DNA from: Opitutales bacterium
GTDB taxonomy: Bacteria > Verrucomicrobiota > Verrucomicrobiia > Opitutales > T3Sed10-336
Direction of reading: 5' to 3'
Length of the DNA stretch: 47,937 nt
Assembly: GCA_007130045.1 (NCBI GenBank)
Contig: SLTG01000016.1
Span: 1-47,937 of the forward strand
The notes under the pieces are model-generated. The model had not been told where the DNA came from, searched no databases, and saw only the letters and a list, made by a program, of their open reading frames with translations. Both the position numbers and the translations under genes were made by a program. Below are positions 8,513 through 45,541 of the stretch, in pieces; within the stretch, counting starts at the first letter, position 1; every line of letters begins with the position of its first letter.

Positions 8513-11500
8513 CTACTCCAGTGCATCGACCCCGTCCAGGCGCAGGCGGAGGAATCCCGAGCCGGCCACAGGAATACGAACCTTTAATCGCTCGGGAGAA
8601 TCTTCCACGACATAAGCGCCATCGACGGGGTCCCACGTCCCCGTCGAAAGACCTTCGGAATAGTCGATGATCAGATCGAGGCCGTCGATGGCGAAGGCGT
8701 CGGGATTGCGGGTTACTTCAAACACCAGGAAATGTTCGGCCCCGACGGAATCGAGTTCCGGAAGCGGCATCCCGGCGCTGGCATCCACACGCGGGTCCAG
8801 GCCCAGGACGAACTTCAATGCGTTGATAATCCCGTCGCCGGCCGGGTTGGCGGAAAACCCCGCGTCGTCTCCGGACAAGTCAGGATATTCGCTGATCCAG
8901 GCGCTGTAGACTTCCGGGCCATCGACCCCCTCAAAAGTCGCGGTGATGGAGAGTTCGCCGTAAGGCGTGAGGGTGACCGGGTTTTCGGTGGAATCCAGAT
9001 CCCCGCTCCAGCCGAGAAACTCTCCCCCTTCCAGGGGGACCGCTGTCAACTGAACAGGCTCTCCGGTTACGTAGTCGTCGGGATCCGTAACGACGGTTCC
9101 TCCGCCCACGATCGTGAAATCGATTTCGAAGTCCGAGGGTCCGCGCCAATCCACGAACAGGTCCAGATCCCGTGTTTCACCGCCGGTGTTTACAGCGGTC
9201 AGATAAAAGGTGTTCTCGAAATTTCGATACGAGGAAAAGAAGTTGCGTTCGAAACTCCAGTCGGCAGCACCGTCGCTTTCACCGAAGTTGTTGCCCTCCC
9301 CGTGCAGATAGGGCAACAGTTGGTGCGGCCCCACGTAAAGTTCGATGCCGGGATCGTGCTGGGCAACGCTGCGCCAGCGTACGGCCTCGGCCGGGAATTC
9401 AATCCTCCAGGTGCGAATCTCGCCCGGGGCGAGTTCGGTTTTGACCCGGCCCCCGACTCCGCCCAAAGCGGAAATCAGGCCGAATCGCTCCTGAATCGTC
9501 GCGGCTCCGATTTCGGATTCGACTGAAAAGACGGCGTCCGTGCTCGCGCGAAATCCGATGTAGTAGGATTTACCCAGCTGCAGCTCATCGCCCTTGATCG
9601 TGTACGTCCCGGAATCGCTGATACGGCGGTAATTGTGACGATTGCTCTGCCAAGCCCCGTCACTGGTCCAATCCCTCGGATTGGAGTAGGAAACCCTCGT
9701 ATTGACCCCGGTATCGTCCCACAACCCGGGAGGCGCCGAGTCACGAATGTACATAACCACGTTGCCGGAACTCTCGCTGAAGGTAATCGTCCAGTCGTCC
9801 GGAGTGTCGTTAATACCTTCAGGCAGATCGACCCGGTAGTAACGCCAGTCGTTGGCCGCCAGGATTTGATCCTCGTAGGAACCGCCGTTCAGAGCCAGAT
9901 CCTGAACCACCTGTTCCGCATGGTGCGAGAGACGCAAGCGGTAGCGTGCATTGGTGTCACTGGCGGCATAGACCTTGAAAAACCAGAGGCCCGGATCCAG
10001 AACAGCGGATTCCCGGACATCGAAAGGCACCCAGGCGCCGCGCTCGGTCTGATCGGTCCCGGTCATTCGATGAAGGGTCGTAACTCCCGAGCCGTTTCCG
10101 GCCTCGGGATGACTGGCGCTCGGAAGGTGACCCGGACGCAGGTACAAATCGGTATCCCCGCTCAGGTTGTCGAGAATCGTACGCAACAGAGCGCCGTTAT
10201 CTTCGGGAACCTCGATCGCGAAAAGATGGAAATCCCCGCTGTCCAGATTGACGCCCTGGTCCCCGAACAGCGGATCCCCAAAGCGCGTGTAGCCCGTATC
10301 CGCAAAGGTCGCGCCGTCGAGACCCGGCGTATCGGTCGCCTCTCCGACCGGCGGCATCTCCCAAACTTCCCTTTGCAGGGACGAGAGGACCACGGGTTCG
10401 CTGATGAGGGTGTAGTTGGTTGCGCTTACTCCGCGCACCTCGACATACCAGTCACCGGATTCCAGGTACGGCGGCACCACCAGCATCGCGCCCCGGTGCC
10501 AGTTGGTCTGGCCGGGCGCGAAGTTTCCTTCCGGCGCATTCCCCGGCCGCACGCGCATTTCGGCCTGGCCCTCGCTCTCAGGCAACCGCAAACGCCAAGC
10601 GAGCACCTCCTCTTCATCGACGGGAAGGCTTTCCTCGTAGTACATCACGTTGTCACTTACGGGAACCGTGTAAAAATCACTTTGCCCTTCGACAAGCTGC
10701 CCCGAAGCGCTGTTGCTCGGATCGGAAGGATCCAGGGTGAACGCCAACTCCGCAGCCTGGATCGTGGTGAGCCGGAGTGTGTAACCGCCGGTTCCATAGC
10801 CGGGATCCGCGCCGTGCGCGATCGTCAGCGCATAGGTTCCGGGCCCGGGATTCCCCCGGGTCATAATATCGTAGGAACGCTCCAGGACCCCGCGTCCGGC
10901 GTACTGCCCGTAAACGGGGCGGCCGGAATGATTGACGAAGTAACGGGCCGCCCCCGGCAAGCTTCCCTCGCCGAGGTGCATGTGCGGCGTGCCGGTGCGA
11001 TCCACCATGTGAAGCTCGAACGCATCGACCCCTTCCGGCAACTCAAAGCGGTAATAGTTGACCTCTCCCGAGCGATACGTGACGTCGGCCTCACTCACCT
11101 GGCCCACGGCCGGAAGTGTCCCCAGGTCCGTCACGGTCGCGGGCCCTTTGCTCAAGAGCGTGTAGGACACATCGCCGGTTCCGATCCGGTCATCGTCCGC
11201 CGGTTCCTGTCCGGCGCCCGCGACCAGCAAATAGTAGCGGCCGGGGATAATATGATCCTGGTCATGGCGCGGCCACAGGACAAAACGTTGATTCCCGGGC
11301 ACGGCCAGGCGGACCTGCGGTTCATTGAGCGAGCCCGTCCCCTGCCAGTTGGAGGGATCGTGGGCAAACCCGCTCGTCGTGCGCGAATACGGCACGAAGA
11401 CACTGCGAATAAACAACAACGCTTCGTGCCCCTCGGGAACCTCGAGTTCCACTTCCCAGCTCTCGGTGCCCTCTTCGATATCGACGGCGTAGTACGCAAC

Positions 11501-14500
11501 GTCGCGCGGACTCAAGGTGCCGGAAACTTCACCGCCGTCATAATCCAACACCCTGATCTCGTAGCTCATACCGGCGTTTTCCGGACCGACCGCTTTACTG
11601 CTCCAACTGAAACTGACCGGAGCGTTACCCGAAAGGCGGTTTCGAAAACCGACGTAGTACTCGCCCGGCTGGAGAGGCTGCCCCATCGGGATCGACATCA
11701 GTATTTGCTCATGTTCCTGAGCGCCATCGGCCGAGTACGGGCGACCGGTCCAATCGCGCCGGAGATTGCCGCTGGCAACCATGTGGCGACCGCTGGCCCA
11801 CGATGTCAGCCCCCCGGACGTTCCGACCTGATCGTTCAGATTCTCGGGCAGCTCGTCACGGCGCACCACCATGGCCGGCGGTTCATCGCCCGACCAGTCG
11901 GTAACCCGCAGTTCCCATCCGTGAACAGCCTCGCCATCAATCTGCTCCGGCACATCGACGCGATAAAAAGTCCATTCCTGCGGCCCGAGATCCTGGACCG
12001 TGTCGGTGAAACCATCGATGTCGAATTCGACCGCGCCCGCGGCGGTGATCCGCAAGGTATAAGCGCCGGCATCATAGCCTGGAGTGAAGGAGGTGCCCGA
12101 TCCGTGCGCAACGGCCAGCGTGTAGATTCCCGCTTCCGGGCCCGCTAATGTAATCAAATCATGGTTGCGCCAGACATCCGACGTCCGGCCGCTGTAGTTC
12201 CCGTACCAATTCGCCGTGGCCGGGGGAAGCACGTCCTCGATCAGGTTCATCCGGGGATTGCCTTCCCGGTCTTCAAGACGCAACTCAAGCGCAAGCACGC
12301 CCTCGGGAACCTCGAACTGGTAATAGTTCTGTTGCCCGGACCCATAACTTCCGGATTCCAGGGTGTCTCCGGCGACAGGCAGGAGTCCCAGATCCTGAAC
12401 ATCGGCTTCTCCATGGCTGATCAATTCGTAATCGACCGGCCCTTCACCGATTCGATTGGAGGCCTCCGGATCCTGTCCTTCGCCGACCACCATCAAGTAA
12501 TACGTACCCCCTGCGATATACGCGTCCCCGCTGACCGGCCACATAACGAAATGCTCGTCGCCCGGCTTGTCCAAACGCAGTTGGGTAGTCCCGGGATTCG
12601 CCGCCGAACCGCTGCTTCTCTCGGAATTCGGAAGGAATTCCCTTCGCGCGTAGATCTGAGCCTCGTGCCCCTCTTCCGGCAACTTCAACTCGAACTGCCA
12701 ACTCCGATAGGTTTCATCCGGGATTTCCACGGCGTAGTAGGCAACCTGTCGAGGCTCCAACACTCCCTCGACGCTGCTGCCGTCGCCGTCAAAAGCAAGG
12801 GGTCTGGTCTCGTAGTGGTAGCCGGAGTCTTCCGCACCGACCGCGTTGCTGGTCCAAGTGAAGCTGGTCGGCGTGTTAATGTGGCGACTCTGAAAGCCCA
12901 CGTAGTAGGTTCCCGCCTCCAGGGGCTGCCCCATCGGAAGCGACAGCACATACGACTCGTTGGCTTGGCCGCCGTCGGCCGAAACCGACCGGTCGGTCCA
13001 ATCTCCGGAATCAATGGCCACAAAATTGCCGCTGCCCCAGGTGAAGCTGTTGGCGACGTTAAGTCCGCCGCCGGAGGTTTGGTCCGGCAAAGCATCCCGC
13101 CGCACGACAATCCAAGGCCGGAACTCTTCCCACTCGGTCACGCGGATCTCCCAGCCGAGAATGTCCTCGGGGACTTCGACCTCGTAATAGACCCACTCGC
13201 CTTCCGGCAAATTGTCAACCGTGTCGGAAAATCCGTCAACGTCCGCGACCGCCGGTTCGATTCCCCGAATCACCAGTCGATAGCTTCCCTCCGAGGTACC
13301 GGATTGCTCCGTGATCGACAGGGTATAATAACCGGCGTCCGGACTGGTCAGATACAGGAAATCCGTTGCAAAGTTTTGAAAAATCCTGGCGTTGTACTGA
13401 CCGTACAGGTTCTGGGGGAAACCCACGTTGGGCGACCTTAGCCCGATGGCCGGAGGAACGAAATCCTCACGCAGACGGAGAACCGGATTGCCCGTTTTGT
13501 CTTCGAGCCGGATTTCGACGCCGACCAGTCCGTCGGGCAGTTGAAAACGGTAGTAGTTGATCCCGACTCCCGGATAGCTTTCGCCGTCGAGAACGATTTC
13601 ATCGCCTTCGGTGATCGGCCCGAGGTCGTTCACCGGCGCCTCCCCTACGGAGCGAAGGGTGTAGTCGATGGATCCGGTCCCGATCCGGTTATTGGCCGGA
13701 GGATTCCGGCCTTCACTGACGACCATGAGGTAATACCGGCCCGGCTCGAGGGCATCAGCGCTGCTGCTCTGCGGCCAAAGATCGAAGCGCTCGTCACCGT
13801 CGGTGTTCATGCGAACCTGCAACCCCTCGACGGTGGATTGCCGGAAACTGTTGACCAAAGGCCTGGCAGGATTCGCGTACGGGAGTGCCGTCGTCGAGGT
13901 GTTGGGCAGAAAGTCCTTGCGAATAAACAGTTGCCCCTCGTGGTCCTCCGGCAGATCCAGGTGCACGCGCCAGCTGGATGCTCCTGCGGGAATGTCCACA
14001 TAGTAGTAGTCCACCGCCCGCGGCTCAAGCGTGCCGGTGACCGACTGGTTATCAAAACCCAGTTCGGCGACCTCGTAGGCCATCCCGGAACCTTCCAGCC
14101 CGATCAAACGGCTGCTCCACGTGAAATCCGCGGTGTTGCTCGAACTATTATTGCGGAAGCCGACATAATAAGTCCCCGGCTCCAGGGGCTGTCCCATGCC
14201 GACCGCGGTAACGGCGGATTCCGAGAAGGTTCCCGTCGCCGACTGCGAACGTCCCGTCCAATCCTGCGAGCGGGTTAGACGGGCGTGCGACGCCCACGTC
14301 TCGCCGCGGCCGAACGTTGAGGTTGTGGTAAAGGTGCCGTCCGGCAGCGTGTCGCGCTGGATGGCCGTAACGGGCATGGTTTCATCGTCATTGGTCACCC
14401 GCAGCTCCCAGCCGAGGATTTCCTGCCCGTTTAACGTTTCCGGAATCTCGATACGATAGTAGTCCCACTCCGTGGGGCGCAACTCCGTGACCACCTGATC

Positions 14501-16384
14501 CTCCGTACCGTCCGGATCGCGCTCCGGCGCGGACAAGCTGCTCGAATGAAGCGTGAACTCGCCGAGCGCGTCCTCGTCGGCATAGATGCCGATGTACCAG
14601 GCGTCGGCCTCGTGCGCCGGACTTTGCAGGAAGCCTTGTACGCTCTCGTCGAAATTGTGATCGGTGGTGGAGGACGAACCGTCGGTGCGGCTGTTCCGGC
14701 TCCCGGGAAGGTTGTTACGCCTTATCGCAATCCGCGTGCCGGGAACTTCATTTTCCAACTCAAGCAGCCAACCCAGTCCGGCCACCTGGTCCTCGCTGTC
14801 CAGCATCTGGAAATAGCGCCACCCCGTTCGGCCGGGATCGTCGTTCAATGTGGAGCTTTCGTAATCGATCGTCGTGACGATCGGCTCACGGTTCTGCAAC
14901 TCAAAGCTGCTCGGCTCCTCGCCGTAAACGGTGATGAAATACGTTCCATCGCTCAGGAGCGGCGGCACTAGAGTGAAGGAGTTGTCAACGCCGCCTTCCA
15001 CCTCGGAGTACGCGTGGTTGAAACGGTCGCTGGGGATTTCTCCGAGACGCGCGGCGACGAACGCGTCTCCGGTATCGGGCGAAGCGCTCACCTCCCAGCC
15101 GAGAATATTGCTCGGTACCGTCAGGCGGAAGGTGTGGAACCAGGAGCCGCCTCCCCCGTAAGCCTGGGGCAACCCGCCAAAGGCGGTATCCGTCACCGGC
15201 TGCCAGCGGGAATCCACATAAATCTCCTCCCCCGGCTCGCCGCGAACGGCGAGGTAGTAGGTGCTTCCCCCGCCGGGACTGATTTCGCCCGGCACAAACA
15301 GCGCCTGACCTTCCCGCCGGAAATCGTAGGCCGCGTTCCACAGATCCCAGTTTCCGTTGTTGCCCGGGACCGGAACCGCATTCTCGCGCAAGTCGAATTC
15401 ACCCATCCAAGTATCGCTGCCGCCTTCATCGGCCCTCAACCAGACCCGCCACGCCAGCGCCTCCTGCGGCACCGTGGTGCGGAGAAAAACAACGCCTTCG
15501 CCGGGGATTTCGGTTTCGGTGCCGCTGGCATCGTCCTCGGCCAGCACGCCGAGATCGGTCACCGGAACATCTCCGGCTACCAACGTCCAGTCCGAACCGG
15601 CATCCGCCGCAACGGTCAGGTGCCAGGTCGTCGATGATACGCCGGAAGTCCCCAGCGCCTGGACGATGCCGCCGCCCGTTTCCGTCAGTCCGCTCTCGTA
15701 AAGGTTGTTGGTCGAAGGCGTCGCCGTCCCCTGTTGCCGGATGAACAGCTCGGCCTGGCCCGAATCAACGTTCAGCGCCTTTCGCCATGCGCCCAGAGCT
15801 GTGTCGCGGGTTGTAATGGTAAAATAATGATACCCGCCGCCGTCGCCGGACACGGTGTGTGCGTTGGCCTGATCCCCGTCATCCCATTCCAGGGACAGCA
15901 CCGAGGGAACCTCATCCGCCTGCAAGGTGTAATCAACGGAATCGGTGTCGGTATTCCGCACGCCGATATACCAAGTGCCGCCGGAAAGCTCCGCGGACGA
16001 ACGTACAATCGTCGATGAATAGCCCGACCCGCTGAACGAAAGGCCCTGAAGGCTCGACGCCGTCGGATTCTGTCCCTCCCGCAGATAAAGACCGAGCGGA
16101 ACCGCGTCGCTGTGAACGACAAGCCGGAGACCTTCCGCCCCGGCGGGCACCTCGATCGGGTGGTATTGCCACTCGCCTCCGGCAACGGTGCCGCTTTCAG
16201 ACAACGGCAGTGCCGTTGCCATGGACACCGGAAGTACGGCGAATAATCCGTATAAAATCGATCGGCCGAAATTCCGCCGCAAGGAAGGGTTTGTCGCTTT
16301 TATGATAATCCTTTTTTCGTGTGTTCGTAATTCAGTGGCGGACCGTTCGGGATTCCGATCCACGGAAAGGGTCTTCCCGGTCAC
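8513..16384 (-). CDS. Giant secreted repeat protein with pre-peptidase C-terminal (PPC)-like domains
   Basis: A 2,623-residue exported protein. A signal peptide sits at about 40-60 (SILYGLFAVLPVSMATALP). Most of the chain is many beta-sandwich modules of PPC type, recognisable by WxYYxxxxP, LxxWELRVT, GxxYLxxRxxxxP and GTYYVGFRN. Three long blocks of about 420 residues repeat in tandem (YYVGF near residues 738, 1159 and 1575), with a partial echo near 2276. Around 2420-2483 is an InlB B-repeat-like/Listeria-Bacteroides-type domain (GGGTV, then LTAVPLEGGEFLGWSGD). The end (about 2488-2623) is a tail typical of large verrucomicrobial surface proteins (NPAGDGIINALKFVLGLDP). The start is a GTG; no good ATG exists, and an AAAAAAGGA stretch near 16310-16318 hints at a downstream non-ATG start. 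A surface, binding or adhesion role is inferred. No enzyme domain is seen. Confidence 0.9.
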   Translation of the reverse strand: MTGKTLSVDRNPERSATELRTHEKRIIIKATNPSLRRNFGRSILYGLFAVLPVSMATALPLSESGTVAGGEWQYHPIEVPAGAEGLRLVVHSDAVPLGLYLREGQNPTASSLQGLSFSGSGYSSTIVRSSAELSGGTWYIGVRNTDTDSVDYTLQADEVPSVLSLEWDDGDQANAHTVSGDGGGYHYFTITTRDTALGAWRKALNVDSGQAELFIRQQGTATPSTNNLYESGLTETGGGIVQALGTSGVSSTTWHLTVAADAGSDWTLVAGDVPVTDLGVLAEDDASGTETEIPGEGVVFLRTTVPQEALAWRVWLRADEGGSDTWMGEFDLRENAVPVPGNNGNWDLWNAAYDFRREGQALFVPGEISPGGGSTYYLAVRGEPGEEIYVDSRWQPVTDTAFGGLPQAYGGGGSWFHTFRLTVPSNILGWEVSASPDTGDAFVAARLGEIPSDRFNHAYSEVEGGVDNSFTLVPPLLSDGTYFITVYGEEPSSFELQNREPIVTTIDYESSTLNDDPGRTGWRYFQMLDSEDQVAGLGWLLELENEVPGTRIAIRRNNLPGSRNSRTDGSSSTTDHNFDESVQGFLQSPAHEADAWYIGIYADEDALGEFTLHSSSLSAPERDPDGTEDQVVTELRPTEWDYYRIEIPETLNGQEILGWELRVTNDDETMPVTAIQRDTLPDGTFTTTSTFGRGETWASHARLTRSQDWTGRSQSATGTFSESAVTAVGMGQPLEPGTYYVGFRNNSSSNTADFTWSSRLIGLEGSGMAYEVAELGFDNQSVTGTLEPRAVDYYYVDIPAGASSWRVHLDLPEDHEGQLFIRKDFLPNTSTTALPYANPARPLVNSFRQSTVEGLQVRMNTDGDERFDLWPQSSSADALEPGRYYLMVVSEGRNPPANNRIGTGSIDYTLRSVGEAPVNDLGPITEGDEIVLDGESYPGVGINYYRFQLPDGLVGVEIRLEDKTGNPVLRLREDFVPPAIGLRSPNVGFPQNLYGQYNARIFQNFATDFLYLTSPDAGYYTLSITEQSGTSEGSYRLVIRGIEPAVADVDGFSDTVDNLPEGEWVYYEVEVPEDILGWEIRVTEWEEFRPWIVVRRDALPDQTSGGGLNVANSFTWGSGNFVAIDSGDWTDRSVSADGGQANESYVLSLPMGQPLEAGTYYVGFQSRHINTPTSFTWTSNAVGAEDSGYHYETRPLAFDGDGSSVEGVLEPRQVAYYAVEIPDETYRSWQFELKLPEEGHEAQIYARREFLPNSERSSGSAANPGTTQLRLDKPGDEHFVMWPVSGDAYIAGGTYYLMVVGEGQDPEASNRIGEGPVDYELISHGEADVQDLGLLPVAGDTLESGSYGSGQQNYYQFEVPEGVLALELRLEDREGNPRMNLIEDVLPPATANWYGNYSGRTSDVWRNHDLITLAGPEAGIYTLAVAHGSGTSFTPGYDAGAYTLRITAAGAVEFDIDGFTDTVQDLGPQEWTFYRVDVPEQIDGEAVHGWELRVTDWSGDEPPAMVVRRDELPENLNDQVGTSGGLTSWASGRHMVASGNLRRDWTGRPYSADGAQEHEQILMSIPMGQPLQPGEYYVGFRNRLSGNAPVSFSWSSKAVGPENAGMSYEIRVLDYDGGEVSGTLSPRDVAYYAVDIEEGTESWEVELEVPEGHEALLFIRSVFVPYSRTTSGFAHDPSNWQGTGSLNEPQVRLAVPGNQRFVLWPRHDQDHIIPGRYYLLVAGAGQEPADDDRIGTGDVSYTLLSKGPATVTDLGTLPAVGQVSEADVTYRSGEVNYYRFELPEGVDAFELHMVDRTGTPHMHLGEGSLPGAARYFVNHSGRPVYGQYAGRGVLERSYDIMTRGNPGPGTYALTIAHGADPGYGTGGYTLRLTTIQAAELAFTLDPSDPSNSASGQLVEGQSDFYTVPVSDNVMYYEESLPVDEEEVLAWRLRLPESEGQAEMRVRPGNAPEGNFAPGQTNWHRGAMLVVPPYLESGDWYVEVRGVSATNYTLISEPVVLSSLQREVWEMPPVGEATDTPGLDGATFADTGYTRFGDPLFGDQGVNLDSGDFHLFAIEVPEDNGALLRTILDNLSGDTDLYLRPGHLPSASHPEAGNGSGVTTLHRMTGTDQTERGAWVPFDVRESAVLDPGLWFFKVYAASDTNARYRLRLSHHAEQVVQDLALNGGSYEDQILAANDWRYYRVDLPEGINDTPDDWTITFSESSGNVVMYIRDSAPPGLWDDTGVNTRVSYSNPRDWTSDGAWQSNRHNYRRISDSGTYTIKGDELQLGKSYYIGFRASTDAVFSVESEIGAATIQERFGLISALGGVGGRVKTELAPGEIRTWRIEFPAEAVRWRSVAQHDPGIELYVGPHQLLPYLHGEGNNFGESDGAADWSFERNFFSSYRNFENTFYLTAVNTGGETRDLDLFVDWRGPSDFEIDFTIVGGGTVVTDPDDYVTGEPVQLTAVPLEGGEFLGWSGDLDSTENPVTLTPYGELSITATFEGVDGPEVYSAWISEYPDLSGDDAGFSANPAGDGIINALKFVLGLDPRVDASAGMPLPELDSVGAEHFLVFEVTRNPDAFAIDGLDLIIDYSEGLSTGTWDPVDGAYVVEDSPERLKVRIPVAGSGFLRLRLDGVDALE
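10760..14510 (-). repeat. Three tandem ~1.25-kb coding blocks inside the giant secreted protein
   Basis: Within the giant gene three blocks share the same order of landmarks: a start like DGxxDTVxxLxxxEWxxYxVxVPE plus LGWELRVTxW, an RRDxLP strand, a MGQPLEAGTYYVGF strand, a LEPRxVxYYxVxIP strand, a FxxWP..YYLMVxGEGxxP strand and a xNYYRFxLPxGV strand. Blocks begin near 14510, 13255 and 12035, and the last ends near 10760. Divergence is considerable at the residue level, so these are old protein-level repeats and not recent DNA duplications. Boundaries are approximate. Confidence 0.7.
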
Positions 16385-17871: not shown

Positions 17872-20800
17872 ATGAAGTATTTCCTCCTCCTTGTCCTCGT
17901 TCTCCTCGCGACGCTCGCCCAAACCGCCTCGCCCCAACCGGCGTCGCCGGAATGGGCGGAGGTGGATCGCGCGATCCGCGCCCAACTCCCCCGCACGGCG
18001 ATCGAGCACCTCGACGCGATCATCGCCCGGGCGCTCGAGGAGGAAGCCTATGCCGAGACTGTTCGCGCGGTCGCAACGCGCGTCGCGATCGAGGGGCAGA
18101 TCGAAGGACGCCGCGCGGAGGAAAGGATCACCCGGCTGGAAGCCCGGATGCGGGAATTGCCCGACGGCGTCCAACCCGTCCTGCACGCCATTCTGGGTCA
18201 TTGGTACTGGGACTACTTCCAGCAGAACCGCTGGCGCTTCATGGACCGCACCCGGACCGCCGAACCGCCCGGAGAGGACTTCACGACTTGGGATCTTCCC
18301 CGCATCCTCGCCGAAATCGACGCCCACTTCACGGCCGCGCTGGACAACCGGGAGGCCCTTCGGTCGATTCCCGTTTCCGACTTCGACGGCCTCCTCAACA
18401 AGGGGACCGTGCCCGACACCTACCGGCCGACCCTGTTCGATTTCCTCGCCCATGAAGCGATCTCGTTCTACGCCGCCGGCGAACAGGCCGCCGTCCAGGT
18501 CGAGGACCCGTTTATACTCCAGGCTGGCAGCCCGATCTTTTCGCCGATCGACGCCTTCCTCGAATGGGATCCCGAATCCCCCCACGCCGACTCCGTCACT
18601 TACAAGGCGATCCGGCTTTATCAGGATTTGCTGGCTTTTCATAACAGCGAGGAAAACCAGGTCGCCCGGATCGACGTCGACCTCGCGCGCCTCCGTTTCG
18701 GGTACAACACAGCCGTCGGCCCGGAAAAGAATGAACGCTACATGGCCGCGCTCAGCCGGTTCGTTGACGAACACCGCGACCACGAGATCTCCGCTCGCGC
18801 CCTGTTTCATTGGGCGGGCGTCCTGATGGAGGAAGAGGATTACCTCGAAGCCCACCGCCTCGCCGGCCGTGGCGTCGAGGCATTCCCCGCCAGCATCGGC
18901 GGGGTCTGGTGCGCGAACCTCATTGAGCGAATCGAAGCGAAATCGGTTCAGATCCAGACGGAGCGTGTTTGGAACAATCCCGCGCCCGATATTCGCGTTA
19001 CCTACCGGAATATCGACGAGGTTCACTTTCGCGCCGTGCCCTATGACTACCTCGGTACGGCGCGATGGCACTGGAATCCGGCCTCTTTCGCCCGGGAGAT
19101 TCGAAGCGAACTGCTCGCCGCGGAGCCGGCTCACGCATGGAGCGCCGATCTTCCCGCAACCGACGACTACCGCGAGCGCGTCGAAACTCTTACGGCGTCC
19201 GACGGTCTGGAACCCGGTTTTTATTTCATCCTCGCCAGCCCCGATCGCCGCTTCACCGACCGCGACAATCAGGTCAGCGTGGTTCCGGTATGGGTCAGCG
19301 ACCTGGCGATGATCATACGGACCAGCCACAGGGAGAGGGGTCTTGGGGGGCTCGTCATCGCCGCGGACTCCGGCGAGCCGATCGCCGGGGCGACGGTGCA
19401 TTCCTGGATCCGCGACGAAGAGGGACGGGCCCGCAAACACGAATCCACCGAGACCGACGAAATGGGACTTTTCCGTTTCGACGGGGCTCCTCGCCGAAGC
19501 GTATTGATGGCGGAACACAACGGCCACCGCGTCGCGACCGTGCGGGACTACTCCGGGCACGGGGGAGCCGGCCGGGAGCAGGCGAGCGAACAGACGGTGT
19601 TTTTTACCGACCGGGCTCTGTATCGTCCCGGCCAGACCATTCATTACAAGGGCGTCGGTCTGCGTGTCGACAGGGAAAGGGGTGACTACCGCGTTTTAGA
19701 GGGTCGGTCCGTCACCGTCGCACTGCGTGATCGAAACGGCGACGAAGTCGCCCGCCGCACCCACCGCACCAATGACTACGGGTCCATCAGCGGCAGTTTC
19801 ACCGCCCCTGACGGGCGTCTGACCGGCGCCATGACGATTCAGGTGGTTGCGGGTCCGGCAGGGTCGACTTCGGTCCGGGTCGAGGAATACCAACGCCCCC
19901 GGTTCCGGGTCGAACTCGAAGCGCCCGACGAGTCCGCCCGGCTCGACGAGGAAGTGACGCTCACCGGCAAAGCCACGTCTTACACGGGCGCCGCGGTCGG
20001 CAATGGCACGGTCCGCTGGCGGGTCGTGCGCGAGGTGCGCTTCCCGCCGTGGTGCTGGTGGGGCCCGTGGCGCTGGGGGCCCGGAGGACAGGAGTCCCAG
20101 GCGATCGCCCACGGGACCGCCGTCACCGAACGCGACGGCTCCTTTACCGTCACTTTCACCGCCCGTCCCGACCCGACCGTACCCGAAGCCGACGAGCCGA
20201 CGTTCGTTTACCGCGTCCATGCGGATATCACCGATACCGCCGGCGAAACGCGGTCGGCCTCACGAACGGTCCGTGCGGGCTACACCGCCCTCCAGGCCGA
20301 ACTCACGGCGGCCGAATGGCAGGTGCCGGACGAACCGGTCGCGTTGACGATTAAAACCACCTCCCTCGACGGCGATCCCGAACCGGCCGAGGGAACGGTC
20401 ACGGTGCATTCGCTCCGTCAGCCGGACCGCCCCGTGCGCGGGGCGCTGGAGCCTGTATTTCCATGGTGGCGTTTTTCGGGGGCCGGCGCAGCGGTCACCG
20501 AACCCGAATTCGATCCCGCCAACCCCGACACATGGGAGTTGGACGAGGAGATCGCCGAACTCTCGTTCCGCACCGATCCCACCGGGGAAACGGTGCTCGA
20601 CGTCGACCTTCCAGCCGGCATTTACCGCGCGACACTGGCGACAACCGACCGCTTCGGAAAGTCCGTCAGCGCGCGCCGAACGATCAAAGTCATCGATCCC
20701 GCCGCAGACGAATTCCCGATCCGCGTCACGTCTTGTTTCTCAGCACCGAAGTGGTCCCTCGAACCCGGCGAATCGTTTATCGCCCTTTGGGGAACCGGAT

Positions 20801-23800
20801 ACGAAACCGGCCGGGCTTTCGTGGAAATCGAACAAGGGGTCGAAACGCTTCTCCAGTACTGGACCGAAACCGGAACCACCCAGGCGGGCATCGAATGCGA
20901 CGTCACCGAAGAAATGCGCGGCGGCTTCACGGTGCGGATCACCCATGTCCGGGAAAACCGCGCCTACATCCATGAAAAAACGGTCGATGTTCCGTGGACC
21001 AACAAACAGCTCTCGGTCCGCTGGGAACGGTTCCGCTCCAACCTGGAACCCGGACAGCACGAAACCTGGACCGCCGTGATCGAGGGGCCGGACGCCGAAA
21101 AAGCCGCGGCTGAAATGGTGGCCGCTCTCTATGACGCTTCCCTCGACCAGTACCTGCCGCACGACTGGGCGCGCCTATCGCACCTGTTTCGCCGCGAATA
21201 CTCGTCCGTCCGGTCGCATTTCCAAAACAACGCCGAGCGATTCAATGCCATTTACGGTTCCTGGCAGAGACGCCACAGATCCGCCCGGCTCGCTTACCGT
21301 CATTTCCCGAGGGAGATTGTTGGACGGGCCGCGATAATGGATTACCAGGGGTACGGAGACTCGTACGTCGTAAGACGACCCCCTGAAGGCAGGGACGCGG
21401 CGCCCATGCGCGCGATGGCGGAGATGGAGGCGGCCGATTCTCTCCTGTTGCTCGAAGCCGCCGAATCCGAATCCCCGCCGGACGGCCCGCGTACCCCCGA
21501 TCTCGATACGGTGTCGCTGCGTGAGAACCTCAACGAAACCGCGTTTTTCTTTCCGCACCTGACCACCGACGAAAACGGCGCCGTGCGCATGGAGTTCACG
21601 ATGCCCGAAGCGCTGACCGAATGGCGGTTCCTGGGGTTCGCCCACGACCCCGAACTGCGCAGCGGCTTTCTCGAAGACAAGACGGTCACTTCCAAGGAAC
21701 TGATGGTCGAGCCCCTGGCACCGCGTTTTGTCCGCGAGGGCGACGTGATCGAGTTTCCGGTCATGGTGAGCAACCAGTCCGCCGCCCGCCAGACCGGACG
21801 GGTGCGGCTGAGTCTCCTGGACGCGCGCACCCTCGATCCGCGCGACGCCGAGCTTGAGAACATCGACAACGAACTGGAATTCGATATCCCCGCCAAGGAG
21901 TCGCGCACCTTCTTCTGGCGGATCCGCGTACCCGACGGCAGCGGATTCCTGGTGTACCGTGCCGCCGCCGCCACGCGGCGGCTCAGCGACGGGGAGGAGG
22001 GGTACCTTCCGGTATTGAGCCGGCGGATACTGGTAACCGAATCCCTGCCGCTGCCGATCCGAGGACAGCAGACAAAAACCTTCAGCTTCGACAAGCTCCT
22101 GGCCTCCGGTGATTCGGATACGCTCATGAGCGAGATCCTGACCGTCCAGATGACTTCGCAACCGGCCTGGTACGCGGTCATGGCGCTTCCGTACCTCATG
22201 GAGTTTCCCCACGAGTGCAGCGAGCAGGTCTTCAATCGCCTCTACGCGAACGCGCTCGCGCGTCACATTGCCAATTCCGACCCGCGGATACGCCGCATCT
22301 TCAACCTCTGGCGGAACACGCCCGCGCTCGACAGTCCCCTCGAAAAAAACGAGGACCTGAAATCGGTGATGCTCGAGGAGACCCCCTGGCTCCGGCAGGC
22401 CCGAAGCGAAAGCGAAGCGCGCCGGCAGGTGGGGATCCTCTTCGATGACAACCGCCTCGACGACGAAATCTCCCGCGCCCTCAGCCGCCTGGCCGAGGCC
22501 CAGCGCGCGGACGGCTTTTGGCCGTGGTTCTCGGATGGCCGGCCCAACGAGTTCATCACCCTGTACATTACGACCGGATTCGCTCGTCTTCGGCACCTCG
22601 GCGCCGATATTGACTTGTCGCTCGCCGAAAGGGCGGTCGGCGCCCTCGACGGACGCATGAAGGAGCGCTACGAACGGATCCGCGAAAACGGCGACACCGG
22701 CAGGAACAACCTCACCCCGTATATCGCGTTTTACCTCTACGGGCGCAGCTTCTTTCTCCAGAGCCACCCGATCGACCGCAGCCACCGGGAAGCGATCGAC
22801 TTCTGGCGCGCCCAGGCCCGCGAATACTGGATCCGCCTCGGGCGCCAATCCCAGGGCCACGTCGCCCTCGGGCTGCACCGCTTCGGCGACCGGGAAACAC
22901 CCGTCGCCATCATGAACTCGATTCACGAAAACGCCGTGTTCGACGAGGAGATGGGAATGCTCTGGCGCGACCTCGAACGCAACTGGTGGTGGTACCGCGC
23001 GCCGATTGAAACCCAGGCGCTCATGATCGAGGCCTTCGACGAAATCATGGGCGATGCCGAGGCGGTGGAAGAGGCGAAGGTGTGGCTTTTGAAGCAAAAA
23101 CAGACGCGGGATTGGAAAACGACAAAAGCCACCGCCGACGCCGTTTATGCGATCCTCTTGCGCGGCGCCGATGTCCTCGGCTCGGATGCCGTCGTCGAAG
23201 TCGCGCTCGCGGGCGAGACCGTGGATCCCGGTGACATCGAGCCGGGGACCGGGTTCTACGAAGCGCGCTTTGTCCGAGGCGAGATTCGTCCCGAAATGGG
23301 CGACATCACCGTCACCAAGACCGACGAAGGCGTGAGTTGGGGCAGCGTTCACTGGCAGTACCTGGAAGACATCGGCAAGATCACCCCGCACGAGGAAACG
23401 CCCCTGCAATTACGCAAACGGCTTTTCGTGAAGGAGACGACCGCCCGCGGCCAGGAGTTGAGTCCGGTCGAGGGACCGCTCAGTGTGGGCGATGAGCTCG
23501 TCGTGCGGGTCGAACTTCGGGTGGACCGCGAAATGGAGTACGTGCACCTGAAGGATCAGCGCGGCAGCGGGTCCGAACCGGTCAACGTGCTCAGCGGTCA
23601 CCGCTACCAGGACGGTCTCCGCTACTACGAAAGCACCCGCGACACCGCCAGCCACTTCTTCATCGAGTACCTGCCCAGGGGTGTCTATGTTTTTGAATAC
23701 AGCACCCACATCCGCCACCGCGGCACCTACCAGAGCGGGATAGCCACGATCCAATGCATGTACGCCCCCGAATTCAACAGCCACTCGGAAAGCTTTGAAA

Positions 23801-23814
23801 TCCGGGTGAATTAG
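17872..23814 (+). CDS. Bacterial alpha-2-macroglobulin family protein
   Basis: 1,980 residues with a clear signal peptide (MKYFLLLVLVLLATLAQTASPQ). The N-terminal 450 residues are helical and family-specific. A carboxypeptidase-regulatory/MG-like sandwich follows (near 493, GLVIAADSGEPIAGATVHSW), then the MG2 region (near 582, RALYRPGQTIHYKG), further MG domains, and the A2M signature domain (about 1218-1260, FFFPHLTTDENG then EWRFLGFAHD). The thioester region has ECSEQ with C1449 and Q1452, so the covalent bait-trapping chemistry appears intact. The alpha-alpha toroid and receptor-binding-like end follow. Such proteins are periplasmic or surface protease traps. Length and order match the large Bacteroidota/Verrucomicrobiota branch. 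The penicillin-binding protein 1C often paired with YfhM-type proteins is not adjacent. No lipobox Cys is seen after the signal, so anchoring is unclear. Confidence 0.93.
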   Translation: MKYFLLLVLVLLATLAQTASPQPASPEWAEVDRAIRAQLPRTAIEHLDAIIARALEEEAYAETVRAVATRVAIEGQIEGRRAEERITRLEARMRELPDGVQPVLHAILGHWYWDYFQQNRWRFMDRTRTAEPPGEDFTTWDLPRILAEIDAHFTAALDNREALRSIPVSDFDGLLNKGTVPDTYRPTLFDFLAHEAISFYAAGEQAAVQVEDPFILQAGSPIFSPIDAFLEWDPESPHADSVTYKAIRLYQDLLAFHNSEENQVARIDVDLARLRFGYNTAVGPEKNERYMAALSRFVDEHRDHEISARALFHWAGVLMEEEDYLEAHRLAGRGVEAFPASIGGVWCANLIERIEAKSVQIQTERVWNNPAPDIRVTYRNIDEVHFRAVPYDYLGTARWHWNPASFAREIRSELLAAEPAHAWSADLPATDDYRERVETLTASDGLEPGFYFILASPDRRFTDRDNQVSVVPVWVSDLAMIIRTSHRERGLGGLVIAADSGEPIAGATVHSWIRDEEGRARKHESTETDEMGLFRFDGAPRRSVLMAEHNGHRVATVRDYSGHGGAGREQASEQTVFFTDRALYRPGQTIHYKGVGLRVDRERGDYRVLEGRSVTVALRDRNGDEVARRTHRTNDYGSISGSFTAPDGRLTGAMTIQVVAGPAGSTSVRVEEYQRPRFRVELEAPDESARLDEEVTLTGKATSYTGAAVGNGTVRWRVVREVRFPPWCWWGPWRWGPGGQESQAIAHGTAVTERDGSFTVTFTARPDPTVPEADEPTFVYRVHADITDTAGETRSASRTVRAGYTALQAELTAAEWQVPDEPVALTIKTTSLDGDPEPAEGTVTVHSLRQPDRPVRGALEPVFPWWRFSGAGAAVTEPEFDPANPDTWELDEEIAELSFRTDPTGETVLDVDLPAGIYRATLATTDRFGKSVSARRTIKVIDPAADEFPIRVTSCFSAPKWSLEPGESFIALWGTGYETGRAFVEIEQGVETLLQYWTETGTTQAGIECDVTEEMRGGFTVRITHVRENRAYIHEKTVDVPWTNKQLSVRWERFRSNLEPGQHETWTAVIEGPDAEKAAAEMVAALYDASLDQYLPHDWARLSHLFRREYSSVRSHFQNNAERFNAIYGSWQRRHRSARLAYRHFPREIVGRAAIMDYQGYGDSYVVRRPPEGRDAAPMRAMAEMEAADSLLLLEAAESESPPDGPRTPDLDTVSLRENLNETAFFFPHLTTDENGAVRMEFTMPEALTEWRFLGFAHDPELRSGFLEDKTVTSKELMVEPLAPRFVREGDVIEFPVMVSNQSAARQTGRVRLSLLDARTLDPRDAELENIDNELEFDIPAKESRTFFWRIRVPDGSGFLVYRAAAATRRLSDGEEGYLPVLSRRILVTESLPLPIRGQQTKTFSFDKLLASGDSDTLMSEILTVQMTSQPAWYAVMALPYLMEFPHECSEQVFNRLYANALARHIANSDPRIRRIFNLWRNTPALDSPLEKNEDLKSVMLEETPWLRQARSESEARRQVGILFDDNRLDDEISRALSRLAEAQRADGFWPWFSDGRPNEFITLYITTGFARLRHLGADIDLSLAERAVGALDGRMKERYERIRENGDTGRNNLTPYIAFYLYGRSFFLQSHPIDRSHREAIDFWRAQAREYWIRLGRQSQGHVALGLHRFGDRETPVAIMNSIHENAVFDEEMGMLWRDLERNWWWYRAPIETQALMIEAFDEIMGDAEAVEEAKVWLLKQKQTRDWKTTKATADAVYAILLRGADVLGSDAVVEVALAGETVDPGDIEPGTGFYEARFVRGEIRPEMGDITVTKTDEGVSWGSVHWQYLEDIGKITPHEETPLQLRKRLFVKETTARGQELSPVEGPLSVGDELVVRVELRVDREMEYVHLKDQRGSGSEPVNVLSGHRYQDGLRYYESTRDTASHFFIEYLPRGVYVFEYSTHIRHRGTYQSGIATIQCMYAPEFNSHSESFEIRVN

Positions 23815-42346: not shown

Positions 42347-43915
42347 ATGAAGAGGCACCACATGAGAATGACCGGTACCATTCTTCTGGTACTGAGCATG
42401 GGCGCGAGTCCATTGAGTATCGCCCAGCACGGAAATGAACACGAAGCCGAACACGGGGTCGTGAATTTTCCGATCTCCTGCAACGAGGAGGCGCAGAGGG
42501 AGTTCGAAACAGGCCTTGCGCACCTGCATCACATGATGTACGAACAGGCCCGGCCGCATTTCGAGGCCGCGGCCGAAGCGGACCCCGATTGCGCGATGGC
42601 GCACTGGGGGGTTGCGATGACGAGCTTTCAACCGCTCTGGCATCCGACTCCACCCGAAGGACTCGAGCGCGGGAAAGCCGCTGCGGCGAAAGCGCGTGAA
42701 CTCGGGGCGCAGACGGAGCGCGAAGAGGCTTACATCGCCGCGGCGGAGGCGTTTTTCACCGAACCGGAACCGCCTATGGAGAGCCGCGCGAGGGACCACG
42801 AGGCACGGGTGCGCGCATGGATGGACGCCCAGCGTGAGATTCACGAGGCGTATCCCGAAGACGTGGATGCGGCGGCGTTTTACGCCCTGGCCGAAGTGTG
42901 TTTCGCCATGACGCAGTTCTCGCCGGACGAGGAGCGGGACTTTACCCGCGAAGAGCGGGCGGGCGCGATCCTCGAGGCTTACTTCGAGGACCACCCGGAG
43001 CACCCCGGTCTATTTCATTACCTCATCCACGCCTACGACAGCCCGAAATTGGCGGAAAGGGCACTGGAGGCGGCCCGGGGATACGATCAACTGGCGCCCA
43101 ACACGCCTCACGCCCTGCACATGCCGAGCCACATCTTCGTTCGGCTTGGGTACTGGGAGGAGACTGCCGACTGGAACGAGCGTTCCGCCGCGGCGGCGCT
43201 GCGTCAGGCCGAGCACGATCCCCATGCCAGCGCGCATTACGTTCACGCCCTGGATTACATGATGTACGCCTACCTCCAGATGGGCGAAGAAGAGAAGGCG
43301 CGCGAGACGTTGCGAAGGGTCCAGGAGGTCGAAGAGATGTGGCCTGCGTCCTTTGCCGCCTACAACATCGCGGCGCCCCAGGCGCGCTATTACCTTGAAA
43401 AGCGGATGTGGGAGGAGGCCGCCGCGCTCGAATCCGGAAAGCCCGACGTCCTTTCGTGGGGCGATTTTCCTGTGGCCGAAGCAATATTTCACTACGCGCG
43501 CGGCCTCGGGGCGGCACGCTCCGGTGTCCTCGACCAGGCCGAAATCGAGCGCGATCAGATCATGGAACGGGTACAGACACTGCGCGATGCAGACGACGCC
43601 TACTGGGCGTACATGACCGAGGCTCTCGGCAAAGCCGTGGATGCCTGGATCCTCTACGAGCGTGGCGAGACCGATGAAGGCCTGGCCCGGATGGACGAAG
43701 CGGCGGATCTCGAAGATTCGATGGACAAGCACCCGACGACGCCCGGAGAGGTCTTTCCCGTTCGTGAGCTTTACGCGGAATTGCTCCTCAAGGAGGAGCG
43801 GGTGGAGGACGCCATTGAGGCATTCGAGGCTTCTCTGGAACGAACCCCCAACCGCCGCAACGCGCTTGACGGAATCGAACGGGCTCGTGCCTCGTTGGCG
43901 GCTGTGGGTGATTAA
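42347..43915 (+). CDS. Periplasmic tetratricopeptide-repeat protein
   Basis: 522 residues with a signal peptide (MTGTILLVLSMGASPLSIAQ) after a short basic start, then a His-rich mature N-terminus (HGNEHEAEHG). The rest is helical TPR-like: LAHLHHMMYEQARPHFEAAA, GLFHYLIHAYDSP, and APNTPHALHMPSHIFVRLGYW with ALDYMMYAYLQMGEEEKARE, closing with a classic TPR (ELLLKEERVEDAIEAFEASL). The HALHMPSHIFVRLG motif marks a widespread family of uncharacterised exported TPR proteins. A strong GGAGGAA lies upstream. Its function is unknown to me; protein-protein scaffolding is inferred. It is followed by small genes on the same strand, then the large regulator. Confidence 0.85.
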   Translation: MKRHHMRMTGTILLVLSMGASPLSIAQHGNEHEAEHGVVNFPISCNEEAQREFETGLAHLHHMMYEQARPHFEAAAEADPDCAMAHWGVAMTSFQPLWHPTPPEGLERGKAAAAKARELGAQTEREEAYIAAAEAFFTEPEPPMESRARDHEARVRAWMDAQREIHEAYPEDVDAAAFYALAEVCFAMTQFSPDEERDFTREERAGAILEAYFEDHPEHPGLFHYLIHAYDSPKLAERALEAARGYDQLAPNTPHALHMPSHIFVRLGYWEETADWNERSAAAALRQAEHDPHASAHYVHALDYMMYAYLQMGEEEKARETLRRVQEVEEMWPASFAAYNIAAPQARYYLEKRMWEEAAALESGKPDVLSWGDFPVAEAIFHYARGLGAARSGVLDQAEIERDQIMERVQTLRDADDAYWAYMTEALGKAVDAWILYERGETDEGLARMDEAADLEDSMDKHPTTPGEVFPVRELYAELLLKEERVEDAIEAFEASLERTPNRRNALDGIERARASLAAVGD

Positions 43916-44076: not shown

Positions 44077-44499
44077 ATGAGTGTTGAAAACGAGAAGCCT
44101 GAACGGGAATCCCCGAGCCGCGAAGAAATCGATGCGTGCTTTACGCGCATTGCGCCGGGATCGGGACCGCTGGATGGCCTGACATTCGAGGGAACAGCAA
44201 GCGAAGAGGGAAAACCCGAACCCGAGCCCCTGCACTTGGTGTTTCGGCAAGGTGCCCTGCTTGCCGTGGAATGCATGCGGTACGCATTTGGCGCCGGACC
44301 GTACACGGCCTCCACCACCGGAGACGGGGCCATCGAATTCACTTCGGAAATCCGGAGTCTCGAGCACGAGACGGAGAATCATCTCTGGAAGGGACGGGTC
44401 ACGGACGGTGCGATAACCGGCACCATGGTCTGGACCAACCGTGAAGGAAAGAGCACGAAAATGTCGTTCGAGGCGCGCGCGAAGAAACCGGACGGATAA
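44077..44499 (+). CDS. Small hypothetical protein, beta-rich
   Basis: 140 residues, no signal peptide. An acidic flexible start (MSVENEKPERESPSREE) is followed by beta strands (LTFEGTA, LHLVFRQGALLAVECMRYAFG, AIEFTSEIRS, WKGRVTDGAITGTMVWTNRE), as in a small calycin-like or lipocalin-like barrel. This is suggestive only. A good ribosome binding site (AAGGGAGA) lies about 11 bases before the ATG. It is 17 bp before the fusion gene, so the two are probably co-transcribed. The family is not recognised. Confidence 0.7.
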   Translation: MSVENEKPERESPSREEIDACFTRIAPGSGPLDGLTFEGTASEEGKPEPEPLHLVFRQGALLAVECMRYAFGAGPYTASTTGDGAIEFTSEIRSLEHETENHLWKGRVTDGAITGTMVWTNREGKSTKMSFEARAKKPDG

Positions 44500-44516: not shown

Positions 44517-45470
44517 ATGAAGTATTCGATCGACGAAGAGCTCTTGGAGACTGCCCGAAAGCTGGGCCCGACGATCAGCGAACACGCCGAGGAGGCAGAG
44601 CTCGAGAGGCGGCCGGCCAGGGCGGTTATGGATGCACTGACGAACGCCGGACTCCAGCGGATGTTTATTCCGAAGTCCCTGGGCGGGCTGGAAGTCGATC
44701 CGGTGACGTACGCGCGGATCGCCGAGGAAATCGCCGGCTTCGACAGCGTCGCGGGCTGGGCGTTGCAGGCGGGCAACCACATCGCCTGGTGGTGCGCCCG
44801 TATGCCGAACGAGGGGGTCGAGGAGGTGTACGGGAACGGCCCCGATCATTCGCCCGAGCGATTGGCGCGCGACATCGCGACGTATGTCGGCAACGTCGGC
44901 GAACCGTGCGGCCTTGTCGGATTGTCGGGCGGGGGCATGCTCTCGCTCGGCGCGGCGGCGCGGTCGAGGGATGTATCTGCCGTCGCCGCCTACGAGCCGA
45001 TTGCGCTCGAAGTGATGGATCGAGACTTCGAGGCGCGGTTTGGCGAGCTCGTCGCACGGATGCATGAGGCGGTGGCAGATGAGCGTCCCGTCGATGCGAC
45101 CCGGCTGTTTCTGGAATTCGTGGGCAACGACGCGGAAGTTGCCTCCCTCAACGAACCGGAGTCTCTGCAAATCGCCGCCCGGAACCTGGCGGTCGATCTC
45201 AAGGAATTCCGCCAGGCGACGGAGGCCGCCGCCCGGAACCCGACCGGCCCTGCCTCGCTCGAAAGCATTGCGGCGCCGGTTTTTCTGATGCACGGAACGC
45301 AGACCGCGCAGGAGTGGTTCACCGAGAGTGTACGGTACTATGCGGGCAAGATACCGGGCGCGGAGACCCGCGAGCTCGTCGGCAGCGGACACCTCGGCCC
45401 GGTCATGGAACCGGAACGCATCGCGGGCGAACTCGAGCGGTTTTTTGAGAAGACTCGGGAAGCGGCCTGA
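44517..45470 (+). CDS. In-frame fusion: acyl-CoA dehydrogenase N-terminus joined to alpha/beta-hydrolase
   Basis: 317 residues. Residues 1 to about 109 are the N-terminal helical domain of an acyl-CoA dehydrogenase or related flavin monooxygenase (LETARKLGPTISEHAEEAEL, then LQRMFIPKSLGGLEVDP and ARIAEEIAGFDSVAGWALQA). From about 111 to the end it is an alpha/beta-hydrolase without its first strands: SPERLARDIATYV, nucleophile S137 in VGLSGGGML, acid region FLMHGTQTA, and catalytic His in GSGHLGPVMEPERIAGELERFF. The hydrolase oxyanion region and the dehydrogenase FAD/substrate domains are both missing. The frame is intact, so it could be expressed. It looks like the product of a deletion joining two neighbouring genes near nucleotide 44845. 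Enzymatic activity is doubtful. Confidence 0.85.
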   Translation: MKYSIDEELLETARKLGPTISEHAEEAELERRPARAVMDALTNAGLQRMFIPKSLGGLEVDPVTYARIAEEIAGFDSVAGWALQAGNHIAWWCARMPNEGVEEVYGNGPDHSPERLARDIATYVGNVGEPCGLVGLSGGGMLSLGAAARSRDVSAVAAYEPIALEVMDRDFEARFGELVARMHEAVADERPVDATRLFLEFVGNDAEVASLNEPESLQIAARNLAVDLKEFRQATEAAARNPTGPASLESIAAPVFLMHGTQTAQEWFTESVRYYAGKIPGAETRELVGSGHLGPVMEPERIAGELERFFEKTREAA

Positions 45471-45541
45471 GCCGGGGCTGGATGCCGGCGCGAAAGGTCC
45501 GGCACCGAAAGCGGGTGCCCGGGATTATCGACGAATATATC

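Follow-up and report, generated by a model that had tools for sequence, protein, structure and literature searches.

Gene-fusion remnants arise by deletion between neighbouring co-directional genes. They retain parts of two incomplete neighbours that meet at one joining point, and the missing part is gone from the genome. The locus described here shares these properties, and differs from deletion fusion remnants in general in that its reading frame is preserved, an outcome expected in one third of random joins. The enzymes from which its parts derive belong to two described groups. The HsaA / p-hydroxyphenylacetate hydroxylase C2 (HpaH-C2) / XiaF-type flavin monooxygenases have an acyl-CoA dehydrogenase fold, with an N-terminal helical domain followed by central and C-terminal domains. 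The second group comprises the PcaD-like / Abhydrolase_6 alpha/beta hydrolases (PDB 3r0v and haloarchaeal plasmid homologues), which carry a nucleophile elbow, a cap region and a C-terminal His.

The window analysed, a stretch of 47,937 nucleotides from an Opitutales bacterium, is the complete contig C115 of a 146-contig draft genome that is 97% complete (assembly G000). Positions 44517-45470 of the forward strand form one open frame of 317 codons (317 amino acids) with no internal stop, and no damage is seen beyond the two truncations described below. Two Pfam domains score above the cut-off in the product: Acyl-CoA_dh_N spans residues 8-92 (E 4e-9), and Abhydrolase_6 spans residues 84-303 (E 5e-10). 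The chimera of two enzyme pieces in an intact frame that had been proposed from the sequence alone is thus confirmed, as is its statement that a good gene lies directly upstream: g140, which the same-genus genome G002 also has, stops 17 nt short of the start codon at 44517. Pfam and NCBIfam searches with g140 returned no match (Table 1). Both halves have a coding-like composition, with a GC3 of 0.85 in the first and 0.77 in the hydrolase part, and G+C content shows no jump at the fusion junction. Structure prediction from the single sequence did not reach a confident fold (mean pLDDT of 37), a result that carries no information and does not count against folding.

Table 1. Features of the window around the fused reading frame.
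Feature	Coordinates	Strand	Evidence
TPR-repeat protein gene	42350..43915	+	TPR Pfam hits; orthologues with 80% identity precede this block in G002 and G028; long ORF called from 42290
g140, 140-aa conserved gene, unknown function	44077..44499	+	counterpart with 83% identity at the same place in G002
Codons 1-110, remaining N-terminal domain of a flavin monooxygenase of HsaA type, with ACAD fold	44517..44846	+	PF02771, NF045629, intact ORFs in G001-G003
Junction of the two parts, around the GAT codon of the Asp they share	44842..44849	+	Parent-gene alignments; sequence unique in assembly
Codons 111-317, alpha/beta hydrolase without ~77 N-terminal residues	44847..45470	+	PF12697; Natronococcus and G028 homologues
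SARP/BTAD-AAA regulator gene (probable start), cut by contig end	45542..47937	+	BTAD and AAA_16 hits; G003 orthologue

Residues 1-110 resemble the helical domain with which HsaA / C2 / XiaF-type monooxygenases begin (NCBIfam NF045629, profile positions 1-101 of 383; PDB 5lvu, 2rfq, 2jbr). In contrast to those enzymes, the 317-residue product has nothing that corresponds to positions ~102-383, which make up the central and C-terminal domains and include PF08028, confirmed in the G002 orthologue. Intact ORFs of 390-395 amino acids that match residues 1-110 at 73-80% identity occur in G001 and G002, which are of the same genus, and in G003, of the same family; one of the same-genus relatives is a metagenome-assembled Opitutia bacterium. 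The sequence-only reading had taken this part for the N-terminal domain of an acyl-CoA dehydrogenase. The fold assignment stands, but the protein is a relative of flavin monooxygenases and not a fatty-acid acyl-CoA dehydrogenase.

The second part, codons 111-317, is 37% identical to residues 72-284 of a full-length hydrolase of 289 amino acids from Natronococcus occultus, the similarity starting at about the shared Asp78. The nucleophile elbow (G135-L-S137-G-G139, with the Ser137 codon at 44925-44927), the cap region and the catalytic His (G-H292) are retained and align with the homologues. Unlike the PcaD-like / Abhydrolase_6 hydrolases, the window product is without about 77 N-terminal residues: Natronococcus residues 1-77 have no counterpart, the Pfam match begins only at profile position 23, the N-terminal sheet is incomplete for want of its first strands, and there is no oxyanion-hole HG. 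It was therefore correct to describe a hydrolase that keeps its Ser and His without its first strands, and to call neither half complete. Within G000 the hydrolase exists in this truncated form only, and the full-length gene was found only as the distant Natronococcus homologue. A plasmid search with the hydrolase half alone returned two haloarchaeal hydrolases, neither of which carries the fusion. We dropped the haloarchaeal homologues as a guide to gene order because their neighbours are unrelated. On the Halomontanus rarus plasmid NZ_CP135523.1 (L018 5731-6366), the annotation lists an alpha/beta hydrolase as intact although an internal deletion, again in frame, has taken out its nucleophile region; this related hydrolase is thus a further deletion remnant with an open frame.

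Alignment to intact homologues places the change-over at codon 110 (GAT, 44844-44846), where an Asp is common to both parent families. The boundary is therefore this shared residue, and not residue 109 as first supposed. DNA similarity to G002 extends to 44833 within the window and stops at the junction. On the monooxygenase side the junction reads CCGGAT in G001 and CCTGAC in G002, and on the hydrolase side a haloarchaeal homologue has TCCGACCACTCG; at the shared GAY codon a haloarchaeal hydrolase reads CCGACCAC, compared to CCGGAT in the G001 monooxygenase. Inspection for microhomology, which the sequence-only reading had proposed, thus makes a few shared bases of the CCGAY type at the GAY codon plausible, but unproven, and revealed no repeats at the junction able to mediate a deletion.

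The gene order in G002 is TPR–g140–monooxygenase–DUF4242, which is the same as that of the window up to the junction; the TPR protein and g140 are 80% and 83% identical to those of the window, and a DUF4242 / SCO4226-like gene comes next after the intact monooxygenase. In G028, from another family of the same order, the TPR gene (80%) and, next to it, the DUF4242 gene (77%) have orthologues, behind which lies a decayed hydrolase (L013 4694-4902, contig C28). The latter has lost its N-terminus; it is 69% identical over 58 residues, with an in-frame stop, and then skips across an internal deletion to a short C-terminal piece. This order indicates that the hydrolase belongs to the same neighbourhood, and the hydrolase has been lost independently in the family of G028. 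Piecing together G002 and G028, we infer TPR–g140–monooxygenase–DUF4242–hydrolase–SARP regulator as the simplest ancestral order, from which one deletion would account for the window. The search for genomes with intact neighbouring parents thus yielded a composite order but not the pair itself: an intact monooxygenase beside an intact hydrolase was not found in the order, phylum and G028-family genomes searched. The SARP locus of G003 was dropped as a candidate for the ancestral arrangement, as the hydrolase is not upstream of the SARP orthologue there.

We consider it very probable that the frame is an in-frame fusion pseudogene, formed when a single deletion joined two former near neighbours. 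Among the possibilities raised from the sequence alone, a deletion product is the one supported by observation: by the two halves themselves, by intact relatives of the first half within the genus that have the same upstream genes in syntenic positions, by the decayed hydrolase of G028, and by the absence of the lost pieces from G000. The deletion would have taken the last ~284 monooxygenase codons, a spacer, probably the small DUF4242 gene, and the first ~77 hydrolase codons. Its estimated size is at least about 1.1 kb without DUF4242, or about 1.55 kb (855 + 191 + 273 + ~231 nt, using the G002 spacing) plus a further spacer if DUF4242 lay between. The join may have fallen in frame by chance, perhaps via a few bases of microhomology at the GAY codon of both genes. 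Transcription and translation from the old operon may continue. The product would be without the flavin- and substrate-site domains of the monooxygenase and without the first strands and oxyanion hole of the hydrolase; with core elements gone from both folds, it most likely has no function and is decaying. Weighing against this reading are the composite nature of the ancestral order and the lack of additional damage in the frame.

Pairwise dN/dS between the N-terminal half and its orthologues is 0.10-0.15, compared to 0.13-0.15 among the intact orthologues, with synonymous sites near saturation, so that the comparison of dN is the firmer one. The dN of this half to the outgroup G003 is 0.175, no higher than the orthologues' own values (0.22-0.23). 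The lack of excess amino-acid change suggests that the join is too young for much decay to have followed, and that the deletion was most probably recent.

Alternatively, an assembler could have joined reads of two genes, or of two strains. The genome is a draft in 146 pieces and the junction lies ~3.1 kb from a contig end. Counter to this, the junction and its surroundings, 131 bases in all, are single-copy in G000, and there is no long repeat there to prompt a misjoin. Moreover, the C-terminal part of the monooxygenase and its linked DUF4242 gene were not left on another contig: both are absent from the rest of G000, whose sole DUF4242 copy is a 46-49% paralogue that is found genus-wide, its kind being also present in G001 and G002. 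The absence of these parts, together with the single-copy junction, argues against a misjoin, which would fall in frame within both genes only once in three times. We thus regard an assembly artefact as unlikely.

Also improbable is that the hydrolase N-terminus was lost before the join, so that the event attached an already decaying fragment. The hydrolase copy of G028 is truncated too, from near codon 127, ~17 codons off this junction, but that copy breaks off at another point and is damaged in additional ways, and the hydrolase part in the window is without stop or frameshift.

It is very unlikely that the product is a functional new small protein that folds and was retained, for example as a regulator or as a subunit-binding decoy. 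Its 317 open codons, the coding-like composition of both halves and the low dN/dS of the first half could be read in this way. However, the low dN/dS stems for the most part from the period that preceded the deletion, and core parts are missing from both domains. In addition, frames stay open easily in such G+C-rich DNA: just 2 and 3 stops occur when the hydrolase part is read in its two alternative frames. No second fusion was found in the samples of relative, order, phylum and G028-family genomes, in phage records, or in pattern scans of genome contigs and viral contigs; several genomes sharing the full-length architecture, which would mark a genuine family, were thus not seen. The suggestion of a new small protein made from the sequence alone therefore finds no support. 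Least credible of all is a newborn fusion protein, expressed from the operon and retained for some new joint activity of the HsaA-type helical domain and the truncated hydrolase.

The probable fusion pseudogene is a clear and recent example of how a deletion can yield a chimera whose frame stays open, and which automatic annotation would enter as an ordinary protein of 317 residues. Its architecture is a caution against claiming a new domain combination. The literature searched contained nothing on this particular fusion. In other respects the locus shows unremarkable gene loss, and the accessory cluster to which it belongs seems to lose genes readily.

Several other features of the window were recorded. 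The TPR protein is 79-80% identical to copies from a different family (L013, L037, L038), compared to 80% for the same-genus copy, a pattern of identities that suggests either strong conservation or horizontal transfer. In G028, G138 and G174 the TPR gene is preceded by another, divergent TPR copy. The SARP regulator has an orthologue of 1025 amino acids in G003 that is 82% identical and begins at the equivalent ATG; by this comparison the true start is probably 45542 rather than the longer-ORF start at 45482. Mismatches in this gene by codon position (0.14/0.08/0.33) are of the coding type. Finally, the window holds two very long ORFs, at 8513-16384 on the reverse strand (2623 amino acids) and at 17872-23814 on the forward strand (1980 amino acids).
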